From contig JAAZVY010000008.1 in the NCBI GenBank assembly GCA_018623195.1, forward strand, positions 1-46,942: a stretch of DNA of 46,942 nucleotides. The letters are read 5' to 3'. This DNA is from Flavobacteriaceae bacterium (GTDB lineage: Bacteria > Bacteroidota > Bacteroidia > Flavobacteriales > Flavobacteriaceae). The stretch's first letter is position 1; the number at the start of each line of letters is the position of its first letter. Below, one piece after another: positions 7,795 through 11,074 of this stretch. The notes beneath the pieces were generated by a model. It saw only the letters and a program-made list of their open reading frames with translations, had not been told where the DNA came from and did not search any database. The translations under genes and the position numbers were made by a program.

Positions 7795-8574
7795 TTAGGA
7801 GAGTTGAGGTTGTTTGATTGCTTCGTAGATCCCATCCCAAAGCGCGATTCGAACCTCTAAGGATTGGATAGCAACCGCCTCTGCTTCTGCCCAAAGGGTG
7901 TCGTTATCTCCACAAAGTGTCTCAATCATTTTGAGTGCAATGGGGCCATGTTCGTCTCCGTCTAACTCAATGTGACGATCGAGATAGTATCTGAACTTAT
8001 CGTAGTCATGACCACTGGTCTTTGCCTCTTCTAGTATAGCAATGAACATGTCAGGAATAACATCTTCTCGTCCGAAGGTGAAAGAGGCAGCAATTTTATG
8101 AGCTTCTTTGGTCTCTACAATTTTAAACGTATAGTTTACGAAGTCTTGCGCTGCTTTTGGGGCATTAGCGATTTCTAGAGCTTCTCCTATATTTTTATTA
8201 TTTCGAAGTGCTACGATGAATGTCTCAATCCCTTTTGTCGAGGCGCCTAGTTGCTTCATGGCATCGAGGTACATTTCGAAATGACTCATAGGTTCACCAA
8301 CTTCGTTAATGTCACTCTCTTCGCCGTGCACAATTTCATTGATAAATCGTGCTACTACTCCGCTCCCCGTAGGTAACCAGGGTAGGCTTACGCAGGTAAA
8401 CTGAAGCTGTAAGGCTTTGAGTAAAGACATGAAGTCGAATACGGCATAAACGTGAAACTCACTGAAAAGTTTGACGTCATTAATGCTTTGCAGACTTCTG
8501 TAAAGTGGATGACTTTTTAATGACGATCTAAGCGGCGTTAACTTATTCTCTAAGGCTTCTATTCTCGAACTCAT
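7795..8574 (-). CDS. DUF3050 family protein, heme-oxygenase-like fold
   Basis: All-helical 259-residue protein of the DUF3050 family, which I recall being grouped with the heme-oxygenase-like superfamily; no activity is established. Potential metal ligands sit in the spots expected for that fold: FSEFHVYAVFDF (His41) in an early helix, INEIVHGEESD (Glu80, His83, Glu85/86) in the second core helix, and DRHIELDGDEHG (His201, Asp205, His209) in a late helix. The last pattern resembles the DxxxH element of heme-oxygenase-like diiron oxidases. It leads a four-gene operon and has a TAATTTTG promoter 21 bp upstream of the start. Substrate unknown. Confidence 0.8.
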   Translation of the reverse strand: MSSRIEALENKLTPLRSSLKSHPLYRSLQSINDVKLFSEFHVYAVFDFMSLLKALQLQFTCVSLPWLPTGSGVVARFINEIVHGEESDINEVGEPMSHFEMYLDAMKQLGASTKGIETFIVALRNNKNIGEALEIANAPKAAQDFVNYTFKIVETKEAHKIAASFTFGREDVIPDMFIAILEEAKTSGHDYDKFRYYLDRHIELDGDEHGPIALKMIETLCGDNDTLWAEAEAVAIQSLEVRIALWDGIYEAIKQPQLS

Positions 8575-8594
8575 ATTCTAGCAATTTTAGAGTG

Positions 8595-8602
8595 CAAAAT
8601 TA
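8595..8602 (-). promoter_or_regulatory. Bacteroidota -7 promoter element for the DUF3050 operon
   Basis: Reads TAATTTTG on the minus strand (TAnnTTTG consensus), 20 bp before the ATG at 8574 and between it and the upstream methyltransferase stop at 8608. Confidence 0.5.
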
Positions 8603-8607
8603 AGAAC

Positions 8608-9219
8608 TTATGGTTTTACGGCGTGCATCCGAACCACCTCAGTCTGACCTACATGACAATCCCCTTCTTCAAGTGAAATCACTTCTTGTTTTAGGGTCTT
8701 AAATCGGTATCCGTCAAAGTGAAGTTTCATGTCTTCGATACTGTATAGAAAATCATCTGATTTTGGGCCTCCGACTGAAGGTTGCTTGGCTTGGTACTTT
8801 AAGTGGTTTGGGCTGAAACCTTCTAAAATGATTGACCCTCCAGGTTTGAGATAACTGGTTAGTCGTTCAAAATTCATGGTGCGAATGGCATTTGGAAAAT
8901 GAACATAAATAAGCGCTAACGTATCAAAACTCTCAGGCTCAAAATCAAGATCAGCTAATGAGCATATTTGATAATCGATTTTGACCTTTTTTTCCTCAGC
9001 CAATTGCATCGCTTTTTTGTAGGCATTTTCAGACCAGTCATAGGCCGAGGCTTGCCATCCTTTTTCGGCAGCGTAAACAGCGTTTCGACCCTCGCCTTCA
9101 GCAGGCAGTAGTATTTTACCGGGTTGTAGCAGGTCTAGTTGTTCTTTGAAAAAGACATTAGGTTCTTTTCCATAGGCGTATTCGGCACGTCCGTAGCGAT
9201 CGTTCCAGAAGTCTTTCAT
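8608..9219 (-). CDS. Class I SAM-dependent methyltransferase (TehB/TPMT-like)
   Basis: Small cytoplasmic methyltransferase. Motif I for S-adenosylmethionine binding is ILLPAEGEGRNAVYAA, in the EGRNA form seen in TehB and thiopurine methyltransferase-like proteins. The opening FWNDRYGRAEYAYGKEPN and the later DTLALIYVHFP and LKPGGSIILEGF segments (motifs IV and V) fit the same group. A hydrophobic small molecule or an oxyanion such as tellurite is a plausible acceptor but cannot be decided. An in-frame codon at 9255 lies upstream of a TAACTTTG promoter element, so I start at the ATG at 9219, giving 203 residues. Confidence 0.82.
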   Translation of the reverse strand: MKDFWNDRYGRAEYAYGKEPNVFFKEQLDLLQPGKILLPAEGEGRNAVYAAEKGWQASAYDWSENAYKKAMQLAEEKKVKIDYQICSLADLDFEPESFDTLALIYVHFPNAIRTMNFERLTSYLKPGGSIILEGFSPNHLKYQAKQPSVGGPKSDDFLYSIEDMKLHFDGYRFKTLKQEVISLEEGDCHVGQTEVVRMHAVKP

Positions 9220-9236
9220 AGCATGATTTTGTGATG

Positions 9237-9244
9237 CAAAGTTA
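9237..9244 (-). promoter_or_regulatory. Bacteroidota -7 promoter element for the methyltransferase gene
   Basis: Reads TAACTTTG on the minus strand, 17 bp before the ATG at 9219. It argues against the longer reading frame that begins at 9255. Confidence 0.55.
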
Positions 9245-9296
9245 GGCAAAAGCAAATGGCCTAAAGAGGATCTGAAGGTTATGAAACGGGAAAGTT

Positions 9297-9755
9297 TTAC
9301 TCTCTGATTGAAGTGTCTGTCGTTATTTCGATGACCCCGCTAGAACCCCTAAACCCGTAGGCTGAGGTTTCTAAAAGAGATTTTAAGACCTTGACCGATC
9401 GTATGCTGTTGAGGTCGAGCCCCGGTGGAGCCTGTTCACCGTAAATGATACCGTCTATTACCCAAAGCGCATAGGGATTGCCAGAGGTAGGAGCATACAT
9501 TCTGTCGTTTAATACAATCACCCGGTTGTCCCGAACCTTTGCAGTCCCTAAATGAGCTCTAAGGGCTTGAATGAGGCTCGGAGCATTTACATCTACCTTG
9601 TATTCATTCAGTTCAATGCGTGGTTTGGTTCGCTTTCTTTTGCGTTTACCCTTTACCCTTACTTCTTTTAAGGCAATAGTATCTTGATTTTCTTGCGCAC
9701 TAAGGGTGGTTGTGCCTACTATAAAGACGAATAATAAGAGAAGATAACGTTTCAT
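9297..9755 (-). CDS. Stand-alone TonB-dependent receptor plug-domain protein
   Basis: Secreted 152-residue protein: signal peptide (about residues 1-20, ending TLSAQ), a highly basic linker (KGKRKRKRTKPR), and a plug-like domain. The segments SLIQALRAHLG, ALWVIDGIIYG, LDLNSIRSVKVLKSL and SAYGFRGSSGVIEITT match the order and spacing of the TonB-receptor plug (the last is the usual YGxRGxxGVIxITT ending), but the gene stops there with no beta-barrel. It is not a truncated pseudogene of a nearby receptor because no barrel sequence follows. Its start overlaps the preceding glycine-zipper peptide gene by 4 bp (ATGA). It may be a periplasmic adaptor or an orphan plug; the role is unknown. Confidence 0.72.
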   Translation of the reverse strand: MKRYLLLLFVFIVGTTTLSAQENQDTIALKEVRVKGKRKRKRTKPRIELNEYKVDVNAPSLIQALRAHLGTAKVRDNRVIVLNDRMYAPTSGNPYALWVIDGIIYGEQAPPGLDLNSIRSVKVLKSLLETSAYGFRGSSGVIEITTDTSIRE

Positions 9756-9904
9756 TTTTTCTTTGAAGAAAGGGCAACAGACATAGCGACACCGATACTG
9801 ACCCCGACACCTACACCGAGTGCAATATTGTCTTGACTTACCCCAATCGCAACCCCAATGGCTATTCCCATAGGGAGCCCTATGGCGAACTTTGACTTCT
9901 TCAT
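9752..9904 (-). CDS. 50-residue glycine-zipper membrane peptide
   Basis: Short gene found by reading the minus strand: ATG at 9904 to TGA at 9752, 50 residues. The product starts MKKSKF and ends SSKKK, with two hydrophobic glycine-patterned segments between (IGLPMGIAIGVAIGV and IALGVGVGVSIGVAMSVAL), separated by SQDN. The GxxxG-like spacing is that of glycine-zipper helices that pack together in membranes, and basic residues at both ends suggest a helical hairpin with both termini in the cytoplasm. The stop overlaps the TonB-plug protein's start by 4 bp, so the two are coupled. A stretch AAGGAAAA lies about 12 bp upstream. Function unknown. Confidence 0.72.
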   Translation of the reverse strand: MKKSKFAIGLPMGIAIGVAIGVSQDNIALGVGVGVSIGVAMSVALSSKKK

Positions 9905-9946
9905 TTTATATGGTTTTCCTTAAAGATAAATAAGATAATCCTTACC

Positions 9947-9960
9947 TAAGGTTAACCTTA
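9947..9960. promoter_or_regulatory. 14-bp perfect palindrome, possible operator
   Basis: TAAGGTTAACCTTA is a perfect 14-bp palindrome located 43-56 bp upstream of the glycine-zipper peptide start, in the position of an operator for that promoter (a TATCTTTA sequence follows it on the minus strand). It also lies about 29 bp upstream of a plus-strand promoter element. The binding protein is unknown; the nearby Crp/Fnr-type regulator is one candidate, although the sequence is not the Crp consensus. Confidence 0.4.
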
Positions 9961-9988
9961 ACTTCTCTTTAAGGGCTTCTATCCAAGT

Positions 9989-9996
9989 TATCTTTG
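9989..9996 (+). promoter_or_regulatory. Plus-strand -7 promoter element with no gene downstream
   Basis: TATCTTTG matches TAnnTTTG. All annotated genes from 4.4 to 11.5 kb are on the minus strand, so this element could only drive the hairpin RNA described at 10003-10057. Confidence 0.4.
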
Positions 9997-10002
9997 TATT
10001 GT

Positions 10003-10057
10003 AAGAGTCATAGAGGCCAAGGGATTGTTCGAGATCCGGTCTCACGACTCTTTTTTT
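10003..10057 (+). ncRNA. Candidate small hairpin RNA ending in a terminator
   Basis: A nested imperfect stem-loop: AAGAGTC (10003-10009) pairs with GACTCTT (10046-10052); inside it GAGGCC pairs with GGTCTC (one G-U pair), and inside that GGAT pairs with ATCC around the loop TGTTCGAG. A run of seven T at 10051-10057 follows on the plus strand only. It begins 7 bases after the TATCTTTG element at 9989-9996. The end overlaps the stop codon of the Crp/Fnr gene on the other strand by two bases. It could be a short untranslated RNA or a terminator protecting the Crp gene from antisense reading; expression is unproven. Confidence 0.35.
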
Positions 10058-10625
10058 ATCCCTCTCTTCGCAACTTCGATAAGAACTCAGGAGTGATGCC
10101 TATATACTTGGCAATTAATTTAAGAGGAACTTCTTGTAAGAGCCCAGGGTAGTTCGAAATAAACTGCTCATAACGCTCTTTAGCACTAAGGTTCAATAAA
10201 TCTAGATTGCGTTTTCGACTACTGACCAGTGCATTTTCGGTAATGATTCTGAAATAACGCTCCAATTTGGGTACGGCCTCAAAGAGCTTTAACTGTTCTT
10301 CTCTGGTAATGGTGAGAATTTCGCTTGAGGTTAGGGCTTCGACTGAGAGCGTTGAGGGGGCATTCGATAGATAGGCGTAGAGATCGGTGACCCATCCGTG
10401 GGGTCTCGCAAACTGCAGGGGATTAATTTGCCCTTTACTGTCAAATGAGTAAGAATAGAGACAACCACTTACCACAAAGGCTAACGATTGAGTCTTCTCG
10501 CCTTCTTCGAGCCAGAGTTCTTTGCGTTTTAATTTTGCACTACTAAAAGCGTGAATCACCTGTCGTTGTTCTTCGGCGGTTAGTTCGACGTGTTTCGAAA
10601 TTGCTTTGATTAATTCTAGCTTCAT
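10056..10625 (-). CDS. Crp/Fnr family transcriptional regulator
   Basis: Cytoplasmic regulator with an N-terminal cyclic-nucleotide-binding-type beta-roll (about residues 20-115; LKRKELWLEEGEKTQSLAFVV and later the PSTLSVEALTSSEILTI strand pair) and a C-terminal helix-turn-helix (LKLIAKYIGITPEFLSKLRR, about 167-187). At 189 residues it is typical of the short Bacteroidota members, which mostly lack the residues needed to bind cAMP; the effector is unknown. The start overlaps the upstream PH-domain gene stop by 4 bp, so it is the third gene of an operon with a lipoprotein and a PH-domain membrane protein. Confidence 0.86.
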   Translation of the reverse strand: MKLELIKAISKHVELTAEEQRQVIHAFSSAKLKRKELWLEEGEKTQSLAFVVSGCLYSYSFDSKGQINPLQFARPHGWVTDLYAYLSNAPSTLSVEALTSSEILTITREEQLKLFEAVPKLERYFRIITENALVSSRKRNLDLLNLSAKERYEQFISNYPGLLQEVPLKLIAKYIGITPEFLSKLRREG

Positions 10626-11074
10626 TCTCGAATCACTTCAATTTCAGGATTGATTTCTAAAAGAGCTGTTACGAACGCTTCATTGTCTGAAGGGCTAAAA
10701 TAGATTTCATCGTATTTATTGTAATAGATGATTACCCCGTTTCGTGCGGTAGCTGGTCGTGTGCCTACCCAAAGGGTTTGATTAATGGCTACTTTCTGAA
10801 TACTCGAAACTGAAAACTTTCCGAACAAAATACTTGATCGCCAGCGCAGTTCATCCCCGTCGATTGTATAGTAAGTATGAGTGTAAAACGCAATCATCAT
10901 TAGGGTGGTTGCGGCCAGAATTAAAAACGCAATCCACGCTTCGGTACCCGATATTCCTGAACGAATCAAGGGCCACATCGGTATTACGCAAACCGCGATA
11001 GAAAAGATGAGCATACCATTGAACAGTGCATCGGTTCGAGCTTTAAATACTTTTGTTGGGCGCGATGATTTCAT
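10622..11074 (-). CDS. PH-like domain membrane protein
   Basis: A 150-residue protein with two hydrophobic helices near the N-terminus (about residues 20-38 and 44-62) followed by a bacterial PH-like domain (about 65-150; YYTIDGDELRWRSSILFGKF, SVSSIQKVAINQT, NGVIIYYNKYDEIYFSP). This is the small membrane-PH layout common in Bacteroidota; the function is not known. It starts inside the TGATG junction with the upstream lipoprotein gene and overlaps the Crp/Fnr gene by 4 bp, so all three are coupled. Confidence 0.72.
   Translation of the reverse strand: MKSSRPTKVFKARTDALFNGMLIFSIAVCVIPMWPLIRSGISGTEAWIAFLILAATTLMMIAFYTHTYYTIDGDELRWRSSILFGKFSVSSIQKVAINQTLWVGTRPATARNGVIIYYNKYDEIYFSPSDNEAFVTALLEINPEIEVIRE

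Follow-up and report, generated by a model that had tools for sequence, protein, structure and literature searches.

The locus studied here raises the question of what the plug domain of a TonB-dependent receptor might do without a barrel, and of whether a small membrane peptide encoded directly ahead of it is its partner. Both genes lie on the minus strand of a 46,942-nt stretch of Flavobacteriaceae DNA (contig JAAZVY010000008.1), referred to throughout as the window. An earlier note on this DNA had described a 50-residue peptide with glycine-patterned membrane segments whose gene overlaps by 4 bp the gene of a secreted protein, and we confirmed the coordinates, the lengths and the ATGA at the junction. 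The same note had proposed that the two products form a working pair, a claim that divides into a part that holds and a part that does not.

The plug protein and its family

The downstream gene (9297..9755, minus strand) encodes P0001, a secreted protein of 152 residues delimited from its open reading frame, a family alignment, a plug profile match and comparison with SusC/RagA structures. Read from the sequence, residues 1-20 (9696..9755, minus strand) form a Sec signal peptide of the kind found in TonB-dependent receptors, with predicted cleavage between ...LSA and QEN and a mature protein starting at Gln 21; a glutamine follows the cut in nearly all relatives as well. This is the Bacteroidetes Q-rule, which one published account gives as usual in the phylum (PMC5837995). 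The signal peptide is the fastest-evolving part of P0001 in a dN/dS comparison of three species, as expected of a secreted protein. After it, the protein reads DTIALKEVRVKGKRKRKRTKPR and then enters the region that aligns with receptor plugs. A TonB-box-like motif, LKEVRV, occupies residues 29-34 (9654..9671, minus strand), and a linker, RVKGKRKRKRTKPR, occupies residues 33-46 (9618..9659, minus strand). The strongly basic character attributed to this linker is real, with 11 K/R and 4 D/E in residues 21-49.

The plug domain itself spans residues 59-150 (9306..9581, minus strand), as delimited by hhalign and dN/dS. An hhalign comparison of this span with the plugs of six TonB receptors from the same genome gave a probability of 97% (E 3.4e-11, 89 columns), and the family profile matched solved SusC/RagA plugs in the PDB with a best E of 1.3e-7. 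Two NCBIfam SusC/RagA signatures were detected in P0001 at E 3.7e-7 and 2.1e-6, with scores far under the curated cut-offs (28.9 of 368.25 bits for TIGR04056 and 27.4 of 46.2 bits for TIGR04057). Pfam Plug (PF07715, gathering cut-off 23.9 bits) did not match P0001; among the 13 rows of A2, the family alignment, it matches 6 at E<=0.1, the best at 1.4e-4. No barrel follows 3' of the plug, as the open reading frame stops at residue 152 in all three species and a methyltransferase gene comes next. P0001 is a complete, diverged plug domain without a barrel, as the earlier note had held, and its fold is read from sequence comparison because direct structure prediction from three close sequences was uninformative (mean pLDDT 39).

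Among the closest known counterparts of P0001 are the SusC/RagA receptors (TIGR04056/TIGR04057), with which it shares the 89-column plug fold region, the C-terminal plug signature IRSVKVLK...YGFRGSSGVIEITT and a pre-plug LxEVxV motif. It differs from them in having neither a barrel nor a CarbopepD-type N-terminal extension, in scoring below the curated cut-offs and, as a family, in the invariant N, A, A and R positions of an NEYxxDxxAxxxxxAxR region. LKEVRV lines up with LxEVxV in all six of the own-receptor reading frames compared (LDEVVV, LDEVIV, LEEVVV, LEEVVI, LDEVII and LEEVIL); the comparison left out L004 and L006, two of the eight own-receptor loci. It also lines up with the TonB box of Bt1763, a SusC protein of B. 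thetaiotaomicron. The study concerned found that transport requires this box (81-VDEVVV-86) and that function is lost on its removal (PMC7782687).

Relatives of P0001 were sought with its N-terminal part alone, because searches with the whole protein were swamped by ordinary receptors. Stand-alone relatives share a basic N-terminal stretch and the motif LNEYGIDxxAPxLVxAIRxHL, followed by the plug. The profile A3 placed such proteins at 15 sites in 11 of 397 genomes of the bacterial family, spread over six genera, with at least 64 bits and open frames of 109-214 aa. These sites include a short copy (G337:C1, 109 aa) and L085, which is ended by a contig edge, and leave out as weaker three fused proteins (L138, L148, L149) and other plugs (L139-L144, L150, L152, L153). 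The 11 genomes are all 1.3-2.2 Mb in size, and some carry two or three copies. Besides the window's own, no strong match was found in 395 phylum-sampled or 201 order-sampled genomes, many of which, in both samples, belong to the same family, and no TonB receptor was among the strong matches of the N-terminal family profile in the 397 family genomes. P0001 belongs to a distinct family of stand-alone plugs that occurs in six genera of one bacterial family. The TonB-box-like motif is present in the three rows from the genus, in L085 and in the three fused forms, and is absent in 10 of the 13 rows of A2. L085 is the nearest relative of P0001, with LTEVKV as its pre-plug motif.

The three fused proteins (L138, 1246-2280; L148, 922-1917; L149, 904-1965) each unite a plug-like domain with a TonB C-terminal domain in one chain. 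Like P0001, they have a signal peptide, a pre-plug LxEVIV motif (LKEVIV, LREVIV and LDEVIV), an LNxYGI region and a plug; unlike P0001, they run on for about 130 further residues that hold the TonB C-terminal domain, matched by PF03544 (TonB_C) above its cut-off at E 6e-7 to 2e-6. The fused proteins are secreted and, the signal peptide aside, have no membrane anchor. An M56/BlaR1-type protein from a Prevotellaceae MAG (L041, 3029-5185) likewise has plug-signature segments that are not part of a barrel; it is 46% like P0001 over about 56 residues. It differs in having an M56 peptidase part and membrane segments, and it is not closely related to P0001 besides the signature. This single M56 membrane protein contains two plug-signature repeats together with TonB_C domains.

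The zipper peptide and its pairing with the plug

The upstream gene (9752..9904, minus strand) encodes P0002, a 50-residue glycine-zipper peptide characterized from its reading frame, a structural model, its homologues and dN/dS. Its first segment has a glycine at every fourth residue (G9/G13/G17/G21), and the second is patterned as G30/G32/G34/G38. Of the two products modeled singly, P0002 alone gave a usable structure: AlphaFold, run with three sequences, predicted a helical hairpin (helices at residues 3-20 and 24-48) with a mean pLDDT of 82. No Pfam glycine-zipper family matched P0002 at E<=0.1, the weak Romo1 match having E 0.17. Similar peptides of 50-60 aa are found in 79 of the 397 family genomes at E<=0.01. 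Those at 27 loci (L055-L081) resemble P0002 in their length of 50-60 aa, their two glycine-patterned segments around a DN-L/I turn and their basic ends, and differ from it in that no plug gene is adjacent at any of the 27; neither of the two that were scanned received a Pfam name at cut-off. P0002 belongs to a common family of small membrane hairpins that is separate from the plug family. A link between the zippers and bacterial PH-domain genes was considered: PF06713 lies beside L056 and near the window's zipper, but the genes at L070 and L074 belong to other families.

The stop codon of the zipper gene and the start codon of the plug gene share an ATGA (9752..9755, minus strand). Where bacterial genes overlap, they most often do so by 4 bp, and the ATGA is weak evidence of partnership. 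Orthologous pairs are present in two other species (L039, PZPI01000015.1; L040, JAHEKV010000037.1), with lengths, 4-bp overlap and flanking genes all as in the window. Pairwise dN/dS among the three species is 0.064-0.112 for the whole plug gene, 0.013-0.028 for plug residues 50-152 and 0.053-0.085 for the zipper gene. Both genes are under strong purifying selection in the three species, and the same overlap and neighbors in two other species, together with the low dN/dS, argue that the pair is not a product of chance. Synonymous divergence between the window and L039 is 0.58-0.65 for the pair, 1.33 for the Crp-like gene, 1.09 for the PH-domain gene and 0.81 for the DUF3050 gene.

Within the genus, the same 3 of 11 genomes contain the zipper and a member of the plug family, and the two are jointly present or jointly absent in all 11. 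The pair forms an insert of about 0.8 kb between a Crp-like gene and the methyltransferase gene. In four species (G003, G004, G007, G008), the site is empty and the Crp-like gene adjoins the methyltransferase gene; the gap between the crp stop and the methyltransferase ATG, read directly in L107, L108 and L109, is 37 nt, and the BLAST spacing in G003 equals it. The same interval in the window is about 836 nt. Comparison of filled and empty sites indicates that the zipper gene, the plug gene and the upstream region were gained or lost together. The remaining genomes without a syntenic Crp-like gene (G001, G002, G005, G006) are uninformative on this point. A check for plasmid origin returned one distant Phocaeicola match covering only 36% of the query. 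Judging from the relatives in empty-site genomes, the methyltransferase (8608-9255, minus strand) probably starts at an ATG near 9219 (MKDFW...) and not at the upstream TTG.

Is the pair a general system? None of 28 other plug loci has a zipper beside it (controls 3/3); these comprise 12 stand-alone family matches, of which L139 is weak, the three fused forms, six epimerase-linked plugs and seven other stand-alone plugs. Conversely, none of the 27 other zipper loci, taken from the 79 matching genomes, has a plug within about 1.5 kb (controls 3/3), the neighbor check spanning about 3 kb per locus. With neither partner found at the loci of the other, the zipper and the plug occur independently of each other almost everywhere, and their pairing is a lineage-specific arrangement of three related species. 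The working pair of the earlier note survives as an overlap kept in two further species of the genus, with both genes under selection, and is not supported as a general two-part system.

A second overlap of this type occurs in the same genus. At L042-L044 (genomes G005, G002 and G006), a stand-alone plug gene overlaps a membrane-peptide gene by 4 bp, as in the window. These plugs differ from P0001 in carrying a lipoprotein-type signal and are 28-29% identical to it, and the peptide, at 52 aa, differs from P0002 in containing cysteine and having no glycine zipper. Pfam Plug is recognized in L042, the one of the three that was scanned. The overlapping genes come directly after feoA/feoB-like genes (named by eye) and are unrelated to the window's pair.

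The upstream region

Between crp and the zipper gene, the three species show strong conservation over about 150 bp. This region holds a perfect 14-bp palindrome, TAAGGTTAACCTTA (9947..9960, no strand assigned), a possible operator upstream of the zipper gene. It is the sole match in the window at up to two mismatches, yet 21 of 100 shuffled sequences hold at least one; one arm is changed in L039 and one end base in L040.

Farther upstream, a possible small RNA (9989..10057) is encoded on the plus strand, opposite to the pair. It comprises a TANNTTTG box (9989-9996), which we take to be the Bacteroidetes promoter element, a hairpin (10003-10052) and a run of seven T. Counterparts of the hairpin lie between the Crp-like and zipper genes at L039 (3696-3760) and L040 (1747-1810). 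In the window, the fold has a z-score of -3.0 on the plus strand and -4.1 on the minus strand and beats all 200 shuffles; in L039 it is moderate, with z-scores of -2.2 and -2.5 on the two strands. The hairpin sequence is present in the same 3 of 59 genomes. No Rfam match was obtained in 8500-10700, and the terminator scan did not list the hairpin because its stem is interrupted. From these sequence features, the conserved opposite-strand hairpin may be a small RNA.

What a free plug may do

The reading that we put forward, tentatively, is that P0001 engages TonB-type C-terminal domains as a periplasmic module; we infer both the binding and the partnership. P0001 would be a soluble unit of TonB box and plug, recognized by such domains through the pre-plug motif and the plug surface, and it would compete for or modulate TonB coupling while transporting nothing itself. 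The zipper gene, joined to the plug gene by the overlap in one clade and inside the insert, would probably be expressed together with it, and the hairpin peptide might serve as a lineage-specific inner-membrane docking partner. A TonB-engaging module is suggested by the LKEVRV and LTEVKV motifs and by the plug-TonB_C fusions, and the co-occurrence of plug-like and TonB_C domains in the M56 protein L041 also counts in its favor. Counting against it are the low pLDDT of P0001, the confinement of the pairing to three species and the behavior of the isolated FepA plug, which part of a review describes as that of an unfolded protein (PMC11658791). As most rows of A2 have no TonB-box-like motif, TonB binding cannot be presumed throughout the family. 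A more elaborate version strikes us as improbable: P0001 as a barrel-less TonB receptor, in which a secreted TonB box and plug act as a mobile TonB ligand or regulator held at the inner membrane by the zipper. Contact between receptor and TonB would then be retained without an outer-membrane pore, with plug and TonB_C fused in relatives.

The missing motif in those 10 of 13 rows speaks for a reading in which TonB plays no part: P0001 would be a small protein that binds a ligand in the periplasm, such as an iron chelate or another nutrient, by way of the plug's binding face, and the zipper would have a separate job. In TonB receptors, barrel loops make most of the binding site, and free plugs have no such loops, which weighs against ligand binding. 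The other stand-alone plugs of the genus, at L042-L044, follow feoA/feoB-like genes, whereas no iron-related Pfam matches were seen in the window neighborhood of the pair. The FepA precedent cuts both ways, as the review, in the part that treats the isolated plug, has it binding ferric enterobactin at about 5 uM while unfolded (PMC11658791). Taken together, we rate ligand binding as a serious rival of somewhat lower standing. The earlier proposal of a dedicated two-part complex, in which the hairpin would anchor or assemble the plug at the inner membrane for signaling or gating, we regard as rather unlikely but still a serious rival. Selection on both genes, the ATGA kept in three of three species and the joint presence or absence in 11 of 11 genus genomes agree with it, as does the second small-membrane-peptide/plug overlap after feoB-like genes in three other genomes of the genus. 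Set against these are the 0/28 plug loci with a zipper and the 0/27 zipper loci with a plug; moreover, absence from the other eight genus genomes represents one or a few events, so joint presence is not independent evidence.

The conserved hairpin bears on a further reading, that the zipper is a toxin-like hydrophobic peptide kept in check by an RNA from the opposite strand, as in type I toxin-antitoxin systems, with the plug carried along. P0002 is indeed a hydrophobic 50-residue peptide with basic ends, and the hairpin upstream of its gene is preceded by a TANNTTTG box and followed by a T run. Nevertheless, about 100 bp separate the hairpin from the zipper start, making overlap with the mRNA uncertain, and the hairpin region has no Rfam match, and we consider this reading very unlikely. 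Decay of a TonB receptor, of which P0001 would be a remnant, was rejected and keeps next to no probability. P0001 is clearly derived from receptor plugs, but a dN/dS of about 0.06-0.11 and an identical length and stop in three species contradict decay, as do the specific relatives in five other genera, which also stand alone, and the N-terminal profile with no TonB receptor among its strong matches. The earlier note had named decay as one outcome that would undo its proposal, and on this point its view of the plug is upheld.

Returning to the TonB-engaging module and its family, the finding with more staying power is the family itself, a small set of secreted plugs that lack a barrel and are under selection, some of them fused to TonB C-terminal domains; the glycine-zipper pairing is of lesser weight, being confined to one clade. 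If free plugs work, the plug is not merely a gate for a barrel but an autonomous periplasmic module, and whether TonB-type domains have targets beyond outer-membrane receptors becomes testable. It would also give a use to the many short genes annotated as "TonB receptor plug domain" that are easily dismissed as fragments. Searches of an open-access library on stand-alone plugs, Feo with a plug, M56/TonB_C/plug combinations and glycine-zipper small membrane proteins turned up no paper that, judged by title and abstract, describes a system of this kind.

Stand-alone plugs as such are not rare, and several other kinds of them occur in the same genus and family. One group, at six loci (L140, L141, L143, L150, L152, L153), lies near a gene resembling an MR_MLE dipeptide epimerase, in 6/6 loci, an assignment made by Pfam at L140 and judged by eye at the other five. 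At L049 (2489-3196, genome G086), a stand-alone plug that scores above the Pfam Plug cut-off follows an N-terminal segment with CxxC-like cysteines and one membrane segment.
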